64,000 nt of DNA from Micromonospora sp. WMMD980. GTDB lineage: Bacteria > Actinomycetota > Actinomycetes > Mycobacteriales > Micromonosporaceae. Of the stretch, positions 19,286 through 30,078 are shown in pieces. The position numbers were made by a program, and so were the translations under genes. The stretch covers positions 6,138,001 to 6,202,000 of the forward strand of contig NZ_JARUBE010000003.1 in NCBI RefSeq assembly GCF_029626035.1, in the 5' to 3' direction. The notes beneath the pieces are model-generated. The model worked only from the letters and a program-made list of their open reading frames with translations. It was not told the origin of the DNA and did not search any database. Within the stretch, counting starts at the first letter, position 1. Each line of letters begins with the position of its first letter.

Positions 19286-20669
19286 TGGGTTGCTCCTCCG
19301 GATAGCGGTACAGGCGTCGTCGGGTGTTCAACGCGATCGCCGACCCGAGGGTGAGCGGTCCGATCCGGCCGATGTACATGAGCACGACCAGCAGGTACTG
19401 GCCGGACTCCGGCAGTCGCTGGGCGAGGCCGACGGTGAGGCCGGTGGTGCTGAACGCGGAGGTGATCTCGAACAGCGCGGCGTAGAGCGGCACCCCCGTG
19501 GTCAGGCCGATCAGCCCGACCGTGCCGGCGGCCACCAGAGCCAGGCTGAGCAGGGCGACCGTCAGCGCCTGCCGCTGGCTGGCCCGGGACACCCGGCGCC
19601 GACCGACGGTGGTGTCCGGCTCGCCACGCAGTTCCGCCCAGATGGCGAAGCCGAGCAGGAAGAACGTCGAGACCTTGATGCCACCGGCGGTGCTGGCGCT
19701 GCCACCCCCGATGAACATCAGGCCGGTCAACATCGGGTAGCTCTCCTCGGTGAGCCGTCCGACGTGGATCACGTCGAAGCCGCCGGTGCGGCTCAACGCG
19801 ATCTGGGCGAACGCGGCGAGCACCTTGCCCGGCACGTCGAAGGTGCCGAGCGTGAACGGATTCGCCCATTCGGCCAGCAGCAGGTAGCCGGAGCCGGCGG
19901 CGGTGAGCACCACGCTGCCCCAGACGGTGAGCTTGGTGGCGACCGCCCACCGGCGGGGTCGTCGCCACTCGCGTACCGCCTCGAACAGCGCCGGGAAGCC
20001 GAGTCCACCGATGATCGCGCCGACGCTGAGCGGCAACGCCACCCACGGGTCCCGGGAGAACGCGACCAGCCCGTCGGTGTAGAGCGTGAAGCCGCCGTTG
20101 TTGAACGCCTGGACCGAGTGGAACACCGCCGACCAGAGCGCCCGCCCGGGCGGGTAGTCGTAGACCAGCCAGAAGCGACCGCCGACCACGGCGGTCATCA
20201 ACGCCTCGGTGACGAACACGGTGGCCGCGATGCGCAGCAGCAACCGGCGTACGTCGCCGAGGCCGAACTCGGCGGTCTCGGCCTGCACGAGCAGTCGGTT
20301 GCGCAGGCCGAGCTGCCGGGAGACCGCCAGGATCACCAGGGCGGCGCCGCTCAGGATGCCGAGCCCGCCGAGCTGGGTCAGCACGGTGATCATCGCGAGT
20401 CCGAAGTGGTTCCAGTAGTTCGGCGTGTCGGTGACCTCCATGCCGGTCACCGACACCGCCGAGGTGGAGGTGAAGAGCGCGGTCAGGAACGGCGTCCAAC
20501 GCTGGTGGCTGGTGGCCCAGGGCAGCATGAGCAGCCCGGCGCCGACCAGGATCACCGCCAGGAACCCGAGCGGCACCAGCCGTACCGGCTTCCGGAGCAG
20601 ACGGCGCACCACGTCATCTTCCGTCCGGAGATTCACCGGCAGGTCAGGAACCGACCAACTGGACGTCAA
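19275..20669 (-). CDS. ktrB: Potassium uptake transmembrane subunit KtrB (TrkH family)
   Basis: A 464-residue integral membrane protein with four M1-P-M2 repeats. The filter and gate signatures are visible: TSTSAVSVTGM, SVQAFNNGGFTLY, ALSRTGGFD and AFSTTGLTVGL, each with the conserved filter Gly; the GGGSASTAGGIKVSTF stretch is the gating loop of the third repeat. Together with KtrA it would import K+ coupled to Na+. The start used is TTG 20669; a GTG 33 bp downstream (VNLRTEDDVV) is equally possible. Only 46 bp separate it from the divergent GDPD gene, so promoters must be closely packed. Confidence 0.9.
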   Translation of the reverse strand: MTSSWSVPDLPVNLRTEDDVVRRLLRKPVRLVPLGFLAVILVGAGLLMLPWATSHQRWTPFLTALFTSTSAVSVTGMEVTDTPNYWNHFGLAMITVLTQLGGLGILSGAALVILAVSRQLGLRNRLLVQAETAEFGLGDVRRLLLRIAATVFVTEALMTAVVGGRFWLVYDYPPGRALWSAVFHSVQAFNNGGFTLYTDGLVAFSRDPWVALPLSVGAIIGGLGFPALFEAVREWRRPRRWAVATKLTVWGSVVLTAAGSGYLLLAEWANPFTLGTFDVPGKVLAAFAQIALSRTGGFDVIHVGRLTEESYPMLTGLMFIGGGSASTAGGIKVSTFFLLGFAIWAELRGEPDTTVGRRRVSRASQRQALTVALLSLALVAAGTVGLIGLTTGVPLYAALFEITSAFSTTGLTVGLAQRLPESGQYLLVVLMYIGRIGPLTLGSAIALNTRRRLYRYPEEQPIVG

Positions 20670-20715
20670 CCACGCCGGGTCTGCTGGGCGTACCCATCGA
20701 CGACAGGAGACTGCG

Positions 20716-21834
20716 TTGCGACGTACCCTTTCCGCCCTCGGCGTGGCCGGCGCGCTGCTCGCGGCGGCGGCCGTGGTGGTGCCGGCCGTGGCCGCCCAGG
20801 CCGGCCCGGACGCCCGCGCCGACCGTCCCCGTGCCGCCCCGCGACCGCTGGTGATCGGCCACCGGGGCGCGAGCGGCTACCGCCCGGAGCACACCCTGGA
20901 GTCCTACCGGCTCGCCATCCGCCAGGGCGCCGACTTCATCGAGCCGGACCTGGTCTCGACGAAGGACGGCGTCCTGGTGGCCCGGCACGAGAACGAGATC
21001 TCGGGTACGACGGACGTGGCCGCGCACCCCGAGTTCGCCGCCCGCAGGGCCACGAAGACCATCGACGGGGTGACGGTGACCGGCTGGTTCACCGAGGACT
21101 TCACCCTGGCCGAGTTGAAGACGCTGCGGGCCAAGGAGCGGCTGCCCCAGGTGCGGGTCACCAACACCGCCTTCGACGGGCAGTTCGAGATCCCGACGTT
21201 CCAGGAGGTCGTCGACCTGGCCCGGACCGAGTCGAAGGCCCGCGGCCGGACCATCGGCGTCTACCCGGAGACGAAGCACCCGACCTACTTCGCGTCGATC
21301 GGCCGCGCGCTGGAGGAGCCGCTGGTCGCGGTGCTCCGCCGGAACCGGCTGACCCACCGCGACGACCCGGTCTTCGTCCAGAGCTTCGAGACCGCCAACC
21401 TGCGCAAGCTCGACAAGATGATCGACGTGCGGCTGGTCCAACTCATGGACGCGACCGGGGCGCCCTACGACTTCACCGCGGCCGGCGACCGCCGGACCTA
21501 CGCCGACCTGGCCACCGCCGCCGGCCTGGCCTGGGTGTCCCGGTACGCCGACGGCGTCGGCCTGAACAAGAACCTGATCGTGCCCCGTGACGCCACCGGT
21601 CGGCTGCTCGCGCCGACCTCGGTGATCCGCGACTCGCACCGGCTCGGCCTGGTGGTGCACGCCTGGACGTTCCGCGCCGAGAACCAGTTCCTGCCGCTCG
21701 ACTTCCGGCTCGGAGCCGACCCGAACGCGCGCGGCGACATCACGTCCGAGTACGAACTCTTCTTCGGCCTGGGCCTGGACGGCGCGTTCGCCGACCAGCC
21801 CGACACCGCCGTGGCGGCCCGCGCCGGTCGCTGA
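20716..21834 (+). CDS. Secreted glycerophosphodiester phosphodiesterase (GlpQ-like)
   Basis: 372 residues with a signal peptide (LGVAGALLAAAAVVVPAVAA, cleavage near AQA-GP) and a full GDPD TIM barrel: VIGHRGASGYRPEHTLESY (first catalytic His, Arg, Glu), FIEPDLVSTKDGVLVARHE (metal ligands and second His) and VYPETKHPTYF. It hydrolyses glycerophosphodiesters to glycerol-3-phosphate plus alcohol, here outside the membrane. TTG 20716 follows ACAGGAGA (20703-20710) and begins a typical secretion signal; the in-frame extension upstream lacks one. A strong hairpin lies 12 bp after the stop. Confidence 0.92.
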   Translation: MRRTLSALGVAGALLAAAAVVVPAVAAQAGPDARADRPRAAPRPLVIGHRGASGYRPEHTLESYRLAIRQGADFIEPDLVSTKDGVLVARHENEISGTTDVAAHPEFAARRATKTIDGVTVTGWFTEDFTLAELKTLRAKERLPQVRVTNTAFDGQFEIPTFQEVVDLARTESKARGRTIGVYPETKHPTYFASIGRALEEPLVAVLRRNRLTHRDDPVFVQSFETANLRKLDKMIDVRLVQLMDATGAPYDFTAAGDRRTYADLATAAGLAWVSRYADGVGLNKNLIVPRDATGRLLAPTSVIRDSHRLGLVVHAWTFRAENQFLPLDFRLGADPNARGDITSEYELFFGLGLDGAFADQPDTAVAARAGR

Positions 21835-22053: not shown

Positions 22054-22809
22054 ATGGCAGACAAGAGCGCCATCGAATGGACGGAAGCAACCTGGAATCC
22101 CACCACCGGTTGTGACCGCATCTCCGCCGGCTGCGACAACTGTTATGCGTTGACCCTGGCGAAGCGCCTCAAGGCCATGGGCTCGACGAAATACCAGACC
22201 GACGGCGACCCGCGTACCTCCGGTCCCGGGTTCGGTGTCGCCCTGCACGCCGATGCCCTGGACGTTCCGCGCCGCTGGCGTGACCCGCGCACCGTTTTCG
22301 TCAATTCCATGTCAGACCTATTTCATGCCAGGGTTCCCCTCGACTACGTCCAACAGGTGTTCACCGTGATGCGCGAGACGCCGCGGCACACCTTCCAGGT
22401 GCTCACCAAGCGAGCGGCGCGATTGGCGAAGGTCGCTCACCAGCTCGACTGGCCAGCGAATGTCTGGATGGGCGTGAGCGTCGAGGACGGCACGCACCAA
22501 GAGCGGGTCGACCAGCTGCGGGAGGTGCCGGCCGCGGTGCGCTTCATCTCGGCGGAGCCGTTGCTCGGCCCACTGTCGGACCTGAATCTCGACGACATCG
22601 ACTGGTTGATCGCAGGCGGAGAATCTGGGCAGGGCTGCCGGTCGATGGACCCGGCGTGGGTCCGTGACCTACGGGATCAGTGCAGGTCTGCCGGCACCGC
22701 CTTCTTCTTCAAGCAGTGGGGCGGGCGTACGCCGAAGATCGGGGGTCGGCTGCTGGACGGCCGGACCTGGGACGAGATGCCACTGCCCCGCACGCTCGCG
22801 TCGGCCTAG
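22054..22809 (+). CDS. DUF5131 three-Cys-motif protein (phage Gp37/Gp68 family)
   Basis: A 251-residue protein, full length for the family. It opens KSAIEWTEATWNPTTGC and has the three-cysteine cluster C-x6-C-x2-C in GCDRISAGCDNCYA, reminiscent of radical-SAM iron-sulfur ligands, followed by TVFVNSMSDLFHARVP, FQVLTKRAARL, VWMGVSVED, RFISAEPLLGPL, WLIAGGESGQGCR and FFFKQWGGRTP, all hallmarks of DUF5131. Function is not established; proteins of this family are regularly found with TcmP (three-Cys-motif partner). Here tcmP lies 25 bp away, convergent. The ATG at 22054 follows GGGAGGAGGGC; the in-frame upstream ATG 22012 has no ribosome site. Base composition is clearly less GC-rich than the chromosome around it. 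Confidence 0.88.
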   Translation: MADKSAIEWTEATWNPTTGCDRISAGCDNCYALTLAKRLKAMGSTKYQTDGDPRTSGPGFGVALHADALDVPRRWRDPRTVFVNSMSDLFHARVPLDYVQQVFTVMRETPRHTFQVLTKRAARLAKVAHQLDWPANVWMGVSVEDGTHQERVDQLREVPAAVRFISAEPLLGPLSDLNLDDIDWLIAGGESGQGCRSMDPAWVRDLRDQCRSAGTAFFFKQWGGRTPKIGGRLLDGRTWDEMPLPRTLASA

Positions 22810-23119
22810 GGAGCGCAGAGGTCTAGCGATCCCGTCACGGGCGCCAGACGACCTCTTTCCAGAAGTCGCCCGTGCCGGGTCCGCTGATCTGTCCCTGCCG
22901 GTGCAGCGCCTTGACGGCCTGCCGCACGTGCGGGGCCCAGGCCTGTCCGAGCACCTCACCGTAGACCTCAGGCACGCGATCCACGATCTTGAAAGACGCA
23001 TGCTGTTCCAGCATCTTCACGAGGTTCCGCTCGATCGTCCGCGACCAGCGCGGAGCGTTCTCGGCCTTGTACTGCTCGGCATCGAAGACGGGGCCGTCGC
23101 CGAACAACGTGTCACCTAG

Positions 23120-24568
23120 TACGGCAGCCGCCATTCGTGATCATGGTGGGAATTCGAGGTTGAGGCGGCGGGCGTAGTGGGCTCGTTTGGCTCGTGCTTG
23201 GTGTCGGCGTCGCCATGTTGACCAGCGCAAACGGTAGGCGATGCTGCGGGTCGGCCGGATGAGCAGGATGTTGATCAGGCGGCGGATCTCGTTGACGGTC
23301 AGCTCGATCATGTCGGGTTGACCGTGACGGTCTGCTGTTCGGGCGTCGGCGGCGCAGATCGCGAGGACCGCGAGGGCTGCCAGGGCCAGGGTGGTGAACC
23401 GGTGCCAGGACGTCCAGCGGCGGACTTGGTGCTGGTCAAGACCGACCTGACCCTTTCCGGCCTGGAACGATTCCTCCACGACCCAACGAACTCCCGCTAC
23501 CCGCACGAGCTGGGCGAGGGTGGCCGGGCCGGGTGTCCAGCAACGGTAGAAGGCCAGCTCACCGGTGGTGTTGTTGCGGCGGATCAGCAGACTGTGCCGG
23601 CCGTCGTCGTCCGAGTCGCCGTCGGCGCCGACGTCGGTCAGCCATGCCCAGTCGTAGAACCGTGGCCCTTTCGACCCGTCGCCGGCACTGCGCCGGGTCC
23701 ACGCGGTGGCAGGCAGGTCGGCGGCCAGCCGGTCGGCGCGACAACGGGTCTTCCCGCCGTCGATCGGCACGAGATGATCGCAGGAGACCGCCAGGACGTA
23801 GCCGAGGCGCAGTTTGCGCAGTTCACCCCGCAGCCGAGTGTTGTTGCCGTAGGCCTCGTCCGCAGCGACCCATCGGGCCGGGACCAGGGCTTGAACAGCG
23901 GCGGTGATCATGTCGTCGGCCAGCTCGGATCGGGTGGCGAACGCGACGTCGTCCGGGACGCCGGCCTGCTCACACCGCTGTCGATCGTCGGTCCAGGACT
24001 TCGGTAGGTAGACCCGGCGGTCGATCAGGGTGTGGCCGTGTCTGCTCGCGTAGGCCAGGAACACGCCAACCTGCGCGTTCTCGATCCGCCCGGCGGTGCC
24101 GGTGTATTGGCGCTGGACACCGACGGTGTGCACACCTTTTTTCAGATCGCCGGTCTCGTCAACGACGAGGACCCCGTCGGGGTCGCCAAGCCGGTCGACG
24201 ACGACCTGTCGCACGTCGTCACGCACCGCGTCGGCGTCCCACTTCGCCCGATACAGCAACCTCTGCATCGCGTCCGGCCGGCCATGCCCGGCCTGCTCCG
24301 CCAACTGCCAACACGTCTTGATTTCGATATTCGTGAGCAGCCCTGTCACGAACGCCGCCGCCGCCCGCCGCGGCTCCACCCGCCCGAACCGTCCCGCGAA
24401 CGCATCGCACACCCCGGCCAGGACCTGCCGCCACCGGGCAGGGTCTACGCTGTGGCACGCGGCCACCGCCAGATCTGAAGTTATGTCCACAGCAGACAGA
24501 CGATCACGCGGTGGCCGCACCTCGTCTACCGACCCCCACCAGCAACATCTCAAACGGCGGCTGCCGTA
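23120..24568 (-). mobile_element. IS701-family insertion sequence in tcmP, 1449 bp
   Basis: The ends carry a 13-bp perfect terminal inverted repeat, TACGGCAGCCGCC (23120-23132) and GGCGGCTGCCGTA (24556-24568). Both sides are flanked by CTAG (23116-23119 and 24569-24572), a four-base duplication of the YTAR type expected of IS701 elements. Only one gene, the transposase, lies inside. The intact ends, undamaged transposase and identical duplications suggest a recent insertion. Confidence 0.93.
23141..24553 (-). CDS. IS701-family DDE transposase
   Basis: Up to 470 residues, the usual size for IS701 enzymes. Motifs include DAMQRLLYRAKWDADAVRDD, the first catalytic Asp in VLVVDETGDLKKG, the second in WVAADEAYGNN and the Glu in WVVEESFQAGKGQVGLDQ, followed by the helix WHRFTTLALAALAVL and a basic C-terminus. 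No frameshift or internal stop, so likely active. ATG 24553 is only two bases from the terminal repeat; GTG 24520 (VRPPRDRLSAV) may be the real start. Confidence 0.92.
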   Translation of the reverse strand: MRCCWWGSVDEVRPPRDRLSAVDITSDLAVAACHSVDPARWRQVLAGVCDAFAGRFGRVEPRRAAAAFVTGLLTNIEIKTCWQLAEQAGHGRPDAMQRLLYRAKWDADAVRDDVRQVVVDRLGDPDGVLVVDETGDLKKGVHTVGVQRQYTGTAGRIENAQVGVFLAYASRHGHTLIDRRVYLPKSWTDDRQRCEQAGVPDDVAFATRSELADDMITAAVQALVPARWVAADEAYGNNTRLRGELRKLRLGYVLAVSCDHLVPIDGGKTRCRADRLAADLPATAWTRRSAGDGSKGPRFYDWAWLTDVGADGDSDDDGRHSLLIRRNNTTGELAFYRCWTPGPATLAQLVRVAGVRWVVEESFQAGKGQVGLDQHQVRRWTSWHRFTTLALAALAVLAICAADARTADRHGQPDMIELTVNEIRRLINILLIRPTRSIAYRLRWSTWRRRHQARAKRAHYARRLNLEFPP

Positions 24569-25481
24569 CTAGGTGATCGCCGCGGCGAAGCTGTTCCCTC
24601 ACCCAAGCCTCCTCCCATTCGACACCGGCCTTACCCAGGGTGTCGGCGAAGTGCCAGGCCCCTTCGCCGTGCCTGGTGAACAGAGTGAGGACATACTTCG
24701 GCGCGAGGCCGGGCCGGGGCCGCACGGGCATGCGCACCGCCTGGTAGTCCGATCCCTCGGTGAGGTTCCGGGCGTACCTGTCCGCGACCCGCAGTGCGAC
24801 GTCGGTGGCACGCTCGTCGTCTCGCGCGTCCGACACCTTGGCGAAATAGTCGCGCCACCAGGCCCCACCGAGGAACCGGTCCAGTCGCGCGGCGGCTTTC
24901 TGTTCGCTCCCCGACAGGCCGCTGGGGCGCTGGCCGGCGACATGGACGGCGCGTCCCATTCGGGCCACGGTGGAGACGCTGAAGTGCAGCAACACCTCGG
25001 TGGGCGGCCAACTGGGCCGACTGAGCAACCGGGCGCGGATCAGGTCGAAGTCGAGGGCCGGACCGAAGGGATCGAGGAAGGCGAAGAGCGAGGAGCCCTT
25101 GGCCCGAGCCAACAACTCGGGGAGGTACTGGTCGAGGCTGCCCTGACGCAGTTCACGTTGGACCGGGCCGCCCTTCTCGCGGAGGACCTGTTCCAGGTTC
25201 GCGTAGCTGTCCGGGTCCTGTTCGACGAAGAACGCCAGCACGTCGCGGAAGCCCTGAACGAACTCGGCGCACCGGGACAGGAGCAGCGGTGAACCCGGCT
25301 CCCCGCCGTCGTACTCGCCTCGGCCGGCGTAACCGTCCAGGAAGACGATCGGGTTGCCCTGGCCCGTCTTGGACGCGAACACCACCGGATAGCGCTTGAG
25401 AATGCCGTGCTTGAGCACGGCGGCTGCCTTCTTGGAGCGGAAGAATTCGTCGTTCGCGGACAAGAGCCCTCTCCACATCAC

Positions 25482-25954
25482 TTACTTATGGTGATGCGAA
25501 GATAGCCCTCCGTTATGACTCGCGCTCGCCGTGGGATGGCTGTCGTGAAGTGCTTGGACCGCCCGCGTTGCCTGGTGAGCAGTGGTGATGCCCTCGGTGG
25601 AGGCGCGAAGGGCGGCATCGTAGTCCATGATCTGACACCGTCACGTGTCCTAGCCTCATGTGCCGCGGTTCACGACCCGGGTGAGGTCTCGTGGCTGGGC
25701 GTGGACATCGGCCCGTACACACCCATGGCGTTCCAGTCACAGTCCGTTCAGCCCGTGGGTGGAACGCTATGAGTGTCTCGGAGGGCCGGAGACGCCCATA
25801 GCGTTCCAGTGACGGCCCCTCCGACTGGTGGGTGGAACGCTATGGGTGTCTTGGAGGGCCGCAGGTAACGCGGCTCGGTTGGTGTGCCTCGATGACCTGT
25901 CGGCAGGTCCGGGCGTGAGTCGTCTACGCCATCAAGTTGCTAGGCAGCCGGAGG
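25482..25954. other. Intergenic stretch of about 470 bp upstream of tcmP
   Basis: No convincing gene is present; the one open frame on the plus strand (25515-25772) has no domain-like pattern or ribosome site and runs into repeats. The region holds two tandem copies of a hairpin unit (25719-25864, listed separately) and, at its left end, the tcmP promoter region. Composition stays less GC-rich than the chromosome. Confidence 0.6.
25719..25864. repeat. Two tandem 73-bp units, each a long hairpin
   Basis: Unit 1 starts ACACCCATGGCGTTCCA (25719-25735) and carries TGGAACGCTATGAGTGT (25760-25776); unit 2 starts ACGCCCATAGCGTTCCA (25792-25808) and carries TGGAACGCTATGGGTGT (25833-25849). Within each unit these arms are inverted repeats of 17 bp with one or two mismatches around a 24-base loop. 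The right-arm side continues as a near-identical direct repeat GTGGGTGGAACGCTAT at 25755 and 25828. Spacing between equivalent points is exactly 73 bp. Could be a mobile REP-like hairpin family, protein-binding sites or an RNA element. Confidence 0.85.
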
Positions 25955-26185
25955 CTATCGGGCCGGAGGGTCGGCGACGTAGGTGCCGCGGCCGGGTTGG
26001 CCGGTGATCAGCTCGCGATCGTGCAGCAGAGACAGCGCCCGCGAGGCGGTATTCATGTGGACGTCGTAGCTCTCGGCCAGCTCGCGGGTCGAGGGCAGCT
26101 TGTCGCCGGGCCTGAGCTCGCCGCTTTTGATCTTCGCGGCCAACTCGTTGGCGATCTGACGGTATGGGGCTTCGGCTGTGGGCAT
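25955..26185 (-). CDS. Short GntR-family winged-helix regulator
   Basis: A 76-residue protein that is only the GntR DNA-binding domain: PYRQIANELAAKIKSGELRP, GDKLPSTRELAESYDVHMNT, ASRALSLLHDRELI and GRGTYV. The effector domain usual in GntR regulators is missing, a form common on actinobacterial plasmids and integrative elements. It lies upstream of the hairpin repeat and tcmP on the same strand, so it may regulate the island, but no palindromic operator was located next to it. Confidence 0.85.
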   Translation of the reverse strand: MPTAEAPYRQIANELAAKIKSGELRPGDKLPSTRELAESYDVHMNTASRALSLLHDRELITGQPGRGTYVADPPAR

Positions 26186-26424
26186 GGTGAGACTCCGGTC
26201 GGTTCGGCACCACCGATCATGCCGGGCCTACACCAGCAACTGCAACAAGCAGAAAGCCCGAAGTGGACGCTCAACCTACACAGGTATTTTGGGTAGGCTG
26301 ACCCGCGTCCGGCTCCGGTTGGTTCGGCAAATCACGGGAGTCGGGCCCGAGGTGGGCTCCGGGGTCGTGCCGCCGCTCTGGGCTGCGGTCTCGGGGTCGC
26401 CTCCACGGCTGGTGAGGAGGACTT

Positions 26425-26795: not shown

Positions 26796-29700
26796 ATGTC
26801 CATTCCTACGATGACACGTGCGCGGCGCCGGTGGTGCGCGACCGCCGCCCTGACCCTGGTGGGCGGCCTGCTGCCGCTCATCGGCCCGCAGGCGGCGACG
26901 CCGGCCCCGGGCCGCCGACGCCAACAACGCGACGCTCGTCGTCAACAAGGGCGGCGACCGCACCGGCGAACAGACCGTCGGACCGCTGGCCGGCGCCACC
27001 TTCGACTTCTACGCGGGCGTCAGCGGGACGCGGCCCGGCCCGGGCGCCACGCCTGACGCGTCCTGCACCACCGACGCCGGCGGCACGTGTGCGGTCGACG
27101 TGCCCGGGCGGACCGGCACGAACCAGGGCTACTGGATCGTCGAGCGCAGCGCGCCGAGCGGCTGGCGCGTCGTCGACAGCCTGGTCACCGGCAACGGGGG
27201 CAGCGCGCCGTTCCAGTCCACGCCGTACAACGGGGTGTTCACCGGGGCGGTGGCCAACAACCAGACGTACACGTTCCCGGTGGAGACCACCGGGAACACG
27301 AACCGGACGGCGCGTGGCCCGGTCCGGGCCGACGAGCGCGACAACCCGGCGCTGCCCGGCTCGTGCGGCCTGCACGTCGCGTTGCTGATCGACGTGTCCG
27401 GCTCGATCCGGCCGGACCTGCCGGTGGTGAAGAACGCGGCGAACGGCTTCGTCGACGCGTTGACCGGCACACCGTCCGAGATCGCGCTCTACACGTTCGC
27501 GACGAACGCCAGCGCGGTGCTGAACCCGACTCCGGTCTCCGACCAGTCCGGTGCGGACACGGTCAAGACCGCGATCAACGGCCTCACCGCAGGCGGCAAC
27601 ACCAACTGGGACCAGGGGCTGTGGCAGATCGCCGCCGCGCCGTTCGACTACGACGCCGTGATCATCCTGACCGACGGCAACCCCACCGTCTACGGGCCGC
27701 CGCCCGTCCAGGGGCCGGGCAACTTCACCCGCTTCGTGGAGGTGGAGAACGGCATCTTCTCCGCCAACGCGGTGAAGGTCAGAGGCACCCGGGTGGTCGC
27801 GGTCGGGGTCGGCGCCGGGGTCTCCGGCGCACCGGACAACCTGATCGCCATCTCCGGGCCGGTCGCCAACTCGGACTACTACCAGACCGACTACGACCAG
27901 CTCGCCGCCGTCTTCCGGGAACTCGCCCTGGAGAACTGCCGGGGCACGATCAGCGTGGTCAAGAAGGTGATCCCGCCGGGCGGCGGTGACCCGCAACCGG
28001 CCGGAGGCTGGATCATCTCCTCCAGCAGCGCCGGCGTGACCCCGCCGAGCGCGGTCACCGACACCTCCACCGGCGGGGTCAACCTCGCCGTCGACCTCGG
28101 CGGCCAGCCGAGCCGGGCGGTGGCGATAGCGGAAACCCCGCAGTCCGGGTTCTCGCTGGTCCAACAGGACGGCCTCAACGCCACCTGCACGGCCAGCGGC
28201 CAACCGGTGCTGGTCACCAACAACGGCGACGTCGGATTCAACGTCAACGCGCTCGCCAACGACGCGGTGGCCTGCGTGATCCTCAACCAGGCCGAGGTCG
28301 CCCCCACCACGGTGGTGGTGAACAAGACCTGGGTGATCAACGGGCAGACCTATCCGGACCCGGAGCAGAGCGCCGCCTTCCAGGCCGCGTTGCTGCTGCC
28401 CGGCATCGACCAGCCGGCCTGGGGCGTGGAGTACCACGACTACCAGGTGGGGCAGTCGATCGTCATCGACGAGGCCATCACCGCGCTGCCGCCGGGCTGC
28501 TCGAACACGGCGAGCGGCGACCTCGGCGAAAAGACCCTCGCCGCCGGGACCAACACCTTCCAGATCACCAACACGGCGACCTGTGAGACGAAGCTGGCCC
28601 TGGTCAAGTCCGTGCAGAACCCGTACGGGGCGCCCGAGCCGCCGCCGACGGCCTGGGACCTGACCGCGTACGGGCCGAACGGATTCACGGTGAAGAGCGG
28701 CGACCCGGCCCGTCCGGTCGTCGAGGACGCGATCTACGCGCTCGGCGAGAGCAACGTCCCCGGCTTCACCCAGACCGTGGTGCCGGGCGCGGTGATCGTC
28801 CCGCCAGCGACCGGTAGCTGGAGCTGCGCGCTTCGGCTACGGGACGGCTCGATGGGCAACCCGGGCTTCGACGGCTCCGACGGACGGGTGTCCGTACAGA
28901 TCGGCCAGACGGCGGTCTGCACCGCGGTCAACCAGGCTCAGCCGGCGCTGCTGACCCTGGTCAAGGAGGTGCGTAACACCCACGGCGGCACCGCGACGCC
29001 GACCGACTGGGTGCTCGCCGCCACCCCGCCGGCCGGTTCCGCCACGCCGGTCACCGGCCGTAGCGGCGAGCCCAGCGTGACGAAGGCGGCGGTGAACCCG
29101 AACCTGGCCTACACGCTCGCCGAGAGCGACGGGCCGGCCGGGTACGAGCAGGTCGGCGAGCCCACCTGCGTGCTGACCGGCACGTCCACCCCGGTCGAGA
29201 CGCCGGGGAACGTGCTGACGCCGACGTTCGGGCAGGACGTGACCTGCACGTTCGTCAACGCCGATGTGCCGGTGCCACCGACCACCGGCACGGTCACGCT
29301 GGTCAAGGAGGTGGCGAACACCTACGGCGGCACCGCGAAGCCGACCGACTGGGTGCTGAGCGCCACCCCGCCGGAGGGTTCCGGGGCGAACCCGGTCAGC
29401 GGGCGCAGCGGTGAGCCGGCGGTGACCGACGCCGAGGTGACGGCCGGCGTGCCGTACGGGCTCAGCGAGAGCGGCGGCCCGTCCGGGTACGAGCTGACCG
29501 AGCTGCGCTGCGTCTTCAACGACACCGGCGAGCCGGCGCCCACCCCGGGCGACGTGCTCACCCCGGCCGCGGGTCGCGCGTACACCTGCACCTGGCGCAA
29601 CGGGCAGCTCGACCCGAACGGGGCGTACCTGACCCTGGTCAAGAAGGTGTGGGGCAAGGCCGCGCCGACCGACTGGACGCTGACCGCGGCGCCGGACAAC

Positions 29701-30078
29701 GCGGCGACGCCGATCAGCGGCCCGTCCGGCAGCCCCGAGGTGACAGCGGTGCCGGTGCAGGCCGGGGTCGGCTACCGGCTCGGCGAGTCGGGCGGCCCGA
29801 AGGGCTACCAGCAGGTCGGGCCGCCGGAGTGCGTGCTCACCGGCTCCGGAACCCGGGTTCCGGTGGCGGACGGGGTGGTCACCCCGGCGCGGGGGCAGGA
29901 CATCACCTGCACCTTCACCAACCGGATGGCGGAGAAGCCGTTCCCGCCGTTCCATCCCGGGAAGCACCTGCCGGTCACCGGCATGAAGCTGACCGGGCTG
30001 ATCGGTGGCGGCGCGCTGGCGATGACCGGCGGCGTGGTGCTGACCGTCCTGGGCTGGCGACGACGCCGGACGATGTGA
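26796..30078 (+). CDS. Sortase-anchored VWA-domain surface protein with Ig-like repeats, frameshifted
   Basis: ATG 26796 starts a signal peptide (WCATAALTLVGGLLPLIGP). At GGG 26909-26911 one extra G breaks the frame; the rest, about 1060 residues, is open to 30078. The body has a prealbumin-like domain (ATFDFYAGVSG to WIVERSAPSGW), a VWA domain with MIDAS VALLIDVSGS, TNWDQGL and ILTDGNP, then repeats starting LALVKSVQNPYG, LTLVKEVRNTHGG, VTLVKEVANTYGG and LTLVKKVWGKAAPTDW, about 110 residues each. The C-terminus is a sortase signal: LPVTG, a membrane helix and WRRRRTM. It would be anchored to peptidoglycan as an adhesin or pilin-like protein. Without the frameshift repair only GTG 27100 can start, which lacks a signal peptide. 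No sortase gene is nearby. Confidence 0.85.

Follow-up and report, generated by a model that had tools for sequence, protein, structure and literature searches.

In the genome of Micromonospora sp. WMMD980, a gene of the DUF5131 family faces a tcmP gene that is split by an insertion sequence (IS), and the locus raises the question of what such a pair does and what its interruption signifies. The window, i.e., the whole stretch of 64,000 nucleotides that was analyzed, corresponds to G000:C3:6138001-6202000 in the 6.83-Mb genome. Our tentative answer, held with somewhat less than even confidence, is that the pair is a mobile, prophage-type module for nucleic-acid modification or exclusion, with a constant half (DUF5131) and a variable half (TcmP), of which the chromosomal copy in the window has been damaged.

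The DUF5131 gene (22054-22809, + strand, 251 residues) is intact and belongs to PF07505 (335.9 bits, cut-off 28.9). The tcmP gene faces it from the opposite strand, the convergent arrangement that had been described in an earlier, sequence-only reading of the locus, and is found in two pieces on the - strand. The C-terminal piece (22835-23119, 94 residues) holds the C-terminal domain and corresponds to residues 298-391 of the intact protein P0010 (89.4%), while the N-terminal piece (24573-25481) holds an RlmJ-like methyltransferase core and aligns at 94.6% to residues 1-297. The alignment with P0010 places the start of the gene near 25463. The open frame of the N-terminal piece continues into the IS (24504-25481, 325 residues), and this frame belongs to TIGR04474 (104.9 bits, cut-off 53).

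The association of the two families extends well beyond this locus. In a sample of 200 genomes of the family, TcmP was found in 30, DUF5131 in 37 and both in 28 (Fisher p 4e-24), while among 394 genomes of the class the respective numbers were 20, 30 and 19 (Fisher p 1e-23); both counts include the present genome and do not require adjacency. A TcmP profile built from Micromonosporaceae loci and the P-series proteins, and extended with viral hits, detected TcmP near DUF5131 in 61 of 80 viral loci (the best 80 of 228 confirmed DUF5131 stretches), and some of the other 19 end at contig ends. The sequence-only statement that these families recur side by side thus holds far beyond chance, in 28/30 and 19/20 of the genomes with TcmP and in most of the best viral loci. 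All genomes of the class sample with a DUF5131 match at an expectation value (E) of 1e-115 or better also have TcmP, and the 11 genomes with DUF5131 only show weaker matches (best 2.5e-103), often to longer forms. Long forms are also carried by the phages prophiGD43A-5 (L225) and Typha (L226), surrounded by other phage genes and with no annotated TcmP, and a separate DUF5131 subfamily may therefore work alone. Among 112 distinct pairs, obtained after removing duplicates from 145, the two genes are convergent in 75 and divergent in none; in the same-strand pairs tcmP lies upstream in 21 and downstream in 16.

The conservation of DUF5131 versus the exchange of TcmP is a new observation. Viral loci with DUF5131 proteins at least 80% identical form 75 pairs, of which 43 have TcmPs assigned to separate BLAST clusters (single linkage at E 1e-20). 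The DNA homology ends 2-46 bases before the DUF5131 stop codon in all 43 different-cluster pairs, and passes this stop in 15 of the 32 same-cluster pairs. At the other end of the gene, used as a control, homology extends >100 bases beyond the DUF5131 start in 3/43 different-cluster and 2/27 same-cluster pairs. Two cases are clean. In the first, the DNA identity between the viral contigs L102 and L117 is 90% for 6.7 kb, as far as the end of DUF5131, and homology resumes in two stretches farther on; their tcmP genes are in opposite orientation, and the encoded proteins have no BLAST match to each other, while both match the TcmP profile. The second comes from phages of Gordonia. Bosnia and Easley have 87% identical DNA across a metalloprotease gene and DUF5131, lose any DNA match about 20 bases ahead of the DUF5131 stop and throughout tcmP, and return to 89% identity about 30 bases inside the repressor gene, with TcmP proteins being 22% and repressors 88% identical. 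In the eight named Gordonia phages compared, drawn from ten distinct ones in the 15 top rows of the DUF5131 search, metalloproteases are 90-99% and DUF5131 proteins 92-100% identical, whereas TcmPs fall into four groups, with 48-100% identity inside a group and 20-31% across groups (over local alignments spanning 47-350 residues).

The position of the exchanged gene in these phages was also informative. In seven of the eight, tcmP directly follows the gene annotated as immunity repressor and shares its strand, the two overlapping by 4 bases or being separated by 3, and in five of the eight TcmP is annotated as a methyltransferase. In the 61 viral loci we collected the longest open reading frame (ORF) within 500 bases on each side, giving 117 ORFs, which are not validated genes. 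The leading PHROGs of the 59 ORFs on the TcmP side are repressors or regulators (phrog_4, seven; phrog_8, five; phrog_2328, four). A metalloprotease family occurs six times in the 117 ORFs and is missing from the 25 families listed for the TcmP side, and a few single neighbours match defence families (type IIG and type I restriction enzymes, PD-Lambda-1 and DrmMI of DISARM). A repressor-linked position has precedents in rexAB of phage lambda and in genes 43 and 44 of CarolAnn; the proteins are unrelated to the present pair, and the likeness is one of position. CarolAnn 43 and 44 are reported to defend Gordonia terrae and to be co-expressed with the repressor, 43 being a predicted membrane protein (PMC6426606).

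PADLOC lists the pair among its phage-defence candidates as PDC-M30 and PDC-M41, where A is the TcmP-type and B the DUF5131 protein. The B models match the DUF5131 of the window at 2.1e-110 and 1.9e-104. Among the phage-contig TcmPs scanned with the A models, those of L112 and L083 matched strongly and that of L066 weakly. Both candidates comprise two genes, and in the window tcmP is split at 23119/24573. The PDC candidates are reported to come from guilt-by-embedding and not to be validated, and PDC-M30 was predicted in 32 strains of a 100-strain P. aeruginosa panel, 68.8% of these strains being resistant (PMC10855318). A TcmP gene adjoining hna in S. meliloti is also reported (PMC12445080). 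Our literature search found no paper assigning a function to TcmP or DUF5131. The sequence-only reading had suggested a modification or defence system, and a role in defence is possible in view of the repressor-linked phage position and the PADLOC listing.

As to what the proteins may be, the fold assignments of both are new. DUF5131 is predicted, with good confidence, to be a spore-photoproduct-lyase (SPL)-like radical S-adenosylmethionine (SAM) barrel, and the top rows of the structure search with its model are radical-SAM enzymes. The cysteine cluster noticed earlier (C20-x6-C27-x2-C30) is present, with all three cysteines invariant in 75/75 aligned rows, although its spacing is a variant within the radical-SAM superfamily. 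The cluster of the lyase SplB is C-x3-C-x2-C, so that DUF5131 shares the SPL fold in its predicted model, differs from SplB in this motif and is only about 10% identical to it. Membership in rSAM_mob_pairA (TIGR04471) was rejected (69.3 bits, cut-off 355). TcmP, also with good confidence, is predicted to have an RlmJ-like methyltransferase fold with altered motif IV. At the family level it shares the fold and, apart from some TcmPs that deviate, motif I with RlmJ, the 23S rRNA (A2030-N6) methyltransferase, and its profile matches RlmJ at E 4.5e-5, while other methyltransferase groups are close behind as structure matches in Z (14.4). Motif IV is DPPY in RlmJ and mostly DPFG or DPYG in TcmP; unlike RlmJ, many TcmPs carry an extra C-terminal domain, and the family is phage-borne and very variable. 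The two partners anticipated from the sequence, one radical-SAM-like and one methyltransferase-like, are thus both predicted by modeling.

The interruption itself proved to be exactly as first described, i.e., an IS of 1449 bp (23120-24568) with perfect 13-bp terminal inverted repeats (23120-23132 and 24556-24568; TACGGCAGCCGCC) and the target copies CTAG at its left (23116-23119) and right (24569-24572) flanks. Its 470-residue transposase (23141-24553, - strand) matches NF033540 (422.4 bits, cut-off 150). The IS701 family is known for a 4-bp YTAR target duplication, and the element agrees with this family in its transposase, its 13-bp ends and the 4-bp YTAG targets of its eight copies. These eight full copies in the genome differ by 0-2 mismatches, seven being flanked by CTAG and one by TTAG, and since two of them have identical flanks they represent at least seven sites. 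Such near-identity points to a recent insertion by an element that is probably active. CTAG is strongly under-represented in the window (19 versus 63 expected from dinucleotide shuffles), though it is the target of this eight-copy IS. Within the DUF5131 gene it is present only at the stop codon, and because of this scarcity the insertion site partly reflects target choice.

Deletion of the IS and one CTAG had been said to restore the tcmP frame. To examine this, we aligned the two pieces separately to intact alleles. They are adjacent on P0010 (297/298), which near the break differs from the window by one residue and aligns gap-free, and in G248, which carries an intact tcmP at the same locus, they join at adjacent bases (L143:1783/1782). 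The interval between the pieces in the window is exactly one element plus one target copy. The restored frame therefore holds, both intact alleles being in agreement with it, and G248 is an intact strain of the kind that had been sought. In the model of P0010 (mean predicted local distance difference test score 92.3), residues 291-310, where confidence is lower (block means 73 and 75), link the methyltransferase-like core to the C-terminal domain. The element is inserted in this linker and leaves the core open in the 325-residue frame. TcmP function has likely been lost in the window. Inactivation of the system, as had been proposed, is likely, with the reservation that the core survives as an open frame and that short natural TcmPs exist in phages (e.g., 273 residues in L117).

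From the computed pairing, predicted folds, exchange, phage position and insertion, we infer substrate, chemistry, expression and defence as follows. DUF5131 would be a radical-SAM-type enzyme of SPL-like fold acting on nucleic acid or nucleotides, and TcmP, a Rossmann methyltransferase-like protein related to RlmJ and in many cases ending in a winged-helix-like domain, would supply target choice or an effector activity. Phage tcmP would be placed for expression together with the immunity repressor, and the pair may serve lysogen exclusion, a form of defence, via nucleic-acid modification. Selection by other phages would drive the replacement of TcmP, while DUF5131, as the common chemistry, would be conserved. 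In the window, the recent IS701 insertion has cut TcmP between its core and C-terminal domain. A bolder form, possible and on balance doubtful, is a constant-variable conflict system, in which a universal SPL-like radical-SAM enzyme would work with many interchangeable RlmJ-like proteins for specificity or effector function, exchanged one gene at a time as cassettes in prophage immunity loci, in the way that restriction systems exchange their specificity subunits, its chemistry being a new radical-SAM-dependent modification or reversal on nucleic acid for lysogen exclusion.

Several observations weigh against the proposed module. Part of the exchange pattern is ordinary phage mosaicism, because in the majority of viral pairs DNA homology also breaks off where DUF5131 begins. 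When mapped on a quickly built maximum-likelihood tree of 111 DUF5131 proteins, the TcmP type changes at least 31 times, compared with 51-66 for shuffled labels, and DUF5131 and TcmP distances are weakly correlated (Spearman 0.22, 44 loci; reached by 0/999 permutations). On account of these two results, the genes are partly inherited together, and TcmP type is best described as often exchanged and also partly inherited with DUF5131. With regard to position, tcmP of Jablanski is not beside the repressor, being the exception among the eight phages, and BaxterFox and PantheRoc are near-duplicates. The tcmP copy of the window, in a chromosomal pair, also lacks the adjoining phage repressor, unlike the phage copies, rexAB or CarolAnn 43/44. 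The PDC A models match its TcmP weakly (best 8.4e-08) and over residues 23-97 only. Foldseek TM-scores are modest for both DUF5131 with SPL (about 0.48/0.38) and TcmP with RlmJ (about 0.36/0.49). Finally, motif IV of TcmP is DPFG in 43 and DPP in 0 of 79 rows, and BaxterFox TcmP appears by eye to have no normal motif I; methylation by part of the TcmP family is doubtful for these reasons.

The genome contains a second DUF5131/tcmP pair (G000:C3:1652578-1656116, in L041; the stretch L041:5579-9147 corresponds to G000:C3:1652578-1656146). Its DUF5131 is intact and aligns at 70.5% to the first, its tcmP is assigned to a different TcmP cluster, and this gene is also interrupted, in this case by an IS3-type element (NF033516, 163.8 bits, cut-off 160). 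A DUF2637 gene and a gene that reads as replication-relaxase-like lie nearby, which suggests that this pair is in an integrative element. Scoring of 12 of 21 candidates revealed no further full tcmP in the genome. Neither the second broken module nor the exchange pattern could be seen in the sequence-only reading. Across 160 genomes of the genus, tcmP was counted 38 times, as a gene or a remnant. This total excludes 44 weak rows (E 7e-7 to 8.5e-4), in which the match is confined to the C-terminal part of a different gene. A single-frame DUF5131 lies within 1.3 kb on the same contig for 36 of the 38; the remaining two are those of G274, at a contig end, and of G153, with DUF5131 on a different contig. 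Breaks affect four of the 38, namely both copies of the present genome, G316 (IS21-like pair) and G153 (two frames in a draft assembly). As for the weak rows, the one examined (L171:1019-1963; G000:C3:3395018-3395962) is a 315-residue frame resembling the C-terminal half of TcmP, with MarR-like helix-turn-helix matches below cut-off and methyltransferase motifs not clear by eye; the 44 rows suggest a widespread gene, perhaps a domesticated TcmP.

Further damaged loci bear on a different explanation, which we regard as unlikely. It holds that the pair modifies and reverses, following the toxin-antitoxin logic for which DarTG is a precedent. TcmP would add a modification or lesion to nucleic acid and the SPL-like DUF5131 would remove it, one antidote serving many TcmPs, so that tcmP could be lost and DUF5131 could not go first. 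The best fold match of the predicted DUF5131 structure, a direct-reversal DNA repair enzyme, would suit this role, and the prevalence of convergent and absence of divergent pairs has also been counted in its favor, although convergent expression is unusual for toxin-antitoxin pairs. Decay is one-sided, DUF5131 being intact each time. Besides the two loci of the present genome and G316, tcmP carries an insertion that reads as IS30-like in G410, lies in two frames in G112, lacks a detectable N-terminal part in G026 and is absent from G236, where DUF5131 is kept. An intact tcmP beside a broken DUF5131 was not seen at the loci examined. However, given the target lengths, p is about 0.03 for 7/7 and 0.14 when only the four IS hits are considered, the cases were collected as they were encountered, the insertion in the window is partly explained by the location of CTAG, and in G035 both genes are broken. 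With few cases, the one-sidedness is only suggestive.

Two further explanations were considered. The phage might modify its own DNA or RNA as counter-defence, its genome thereby escaping host restriction. This would agree with the methyltransferase-like and radical-SAM-like folds predicted in phages and with the methyltransferase annotations, but we consider it improbable, as in most of the named phages tcmP is found in the immunity region behind the repressor and not with replication genes, and the genus has many chromosomal copies, with 12 in a single slot. A housekeeping-like RNA modification accessory without a conflict role, whose IS insertions would be neutral decay, is quite improbable too. 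The relationship with RlmJ speaks for it, and the eight near-identical copies indicate a recently active element that could strike any dispensable gene. On the other hand, the pair is patchily present, DUF5131 occurs in 161 phage and 406 plasmid records, and its partner is strongly exchanged, all of which is unlike a housekeeping enzyme. The prophage-type module with a constant and a variable half remains the reading we prefer.

The sequence-only reading had placed the module in a genomic island, which was not supported. The module or its DUF5131 half occupies, in 12 genomes of the genus, a conserved chromosomal slot bounded by glpQ-like, GntR-like and livK-like transporter genes (named from their sequences, as is the phosphopantetheine-adenylyltransferase-like gene below). 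Both flanks were seen in the present genome, G199, G165, G179, G316, G236 (DUF5131 only), G214, G308, G200 and G248, and one flank in G289 (glpQ side, contig end) and G317 (livK side). The slot is empty, with both flanks, in G296, G116, G306, G206, G223, G224, G107 and G259, of which G296 is the nearest relative by glpQ among the 30 relatives searched (94% DNA identity). In the window the left border is the glpQ-like ORF (20425-21834, + strand), kept in relatives, and on the right lies a segment of the GntR-like regulator (25965-26247, - strand), conserved in several relatives with the module present or absent. This regulator, about 0.5 kb away, is the nearest gene upstream of tcmP and also occurs in module-less relatives. 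No tRNA was found in the window. Two copies of a hairpin-forming short repeat, of the CCCATAGCGTTCCA / TGGAACGCTATGGG type, are located near the right edge of the module (25695-25855), and both match a single stretch in G296. Further along, 27100-30078 encodes a 992-residue surface protein with VWA, four SpaA_2 prealbumin-like stretches and, by eye, an LPVTG-like end; the first 1.5 kb of its gene has no long DNA match in the 30 relatives, and the stretch is missing at the same place in G296, making it a second strain-specific insertion in the interval. A phosphopantetheine-adenylyltransferase-like gene is found downstream of glpQ in G306 (L203:2188-2670) and G003 (L204:1469-1927), and the DUF5131 of G236 adjoins a P-loop kinase-like AAA_33 protein (L174:5179-5760).

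Taken by itself, the window records nothing more unusual than a recent IS insertion into an accessory gene. The DUF5131/TcmP family is not ordinary, combining a conserved enzyme with a repeatedly replaced partner in what is, in named phages, an immunity locus. The exchange pattern, the repressor-linked position and the two predicted fold relatives turn an unknown pair into a testable system. The relatives are concrete, namely a radical-SAM DNA repair enzyme and an rRNA methyltransferase, and the named phages share a defined host, Gordonia terrae 3612.

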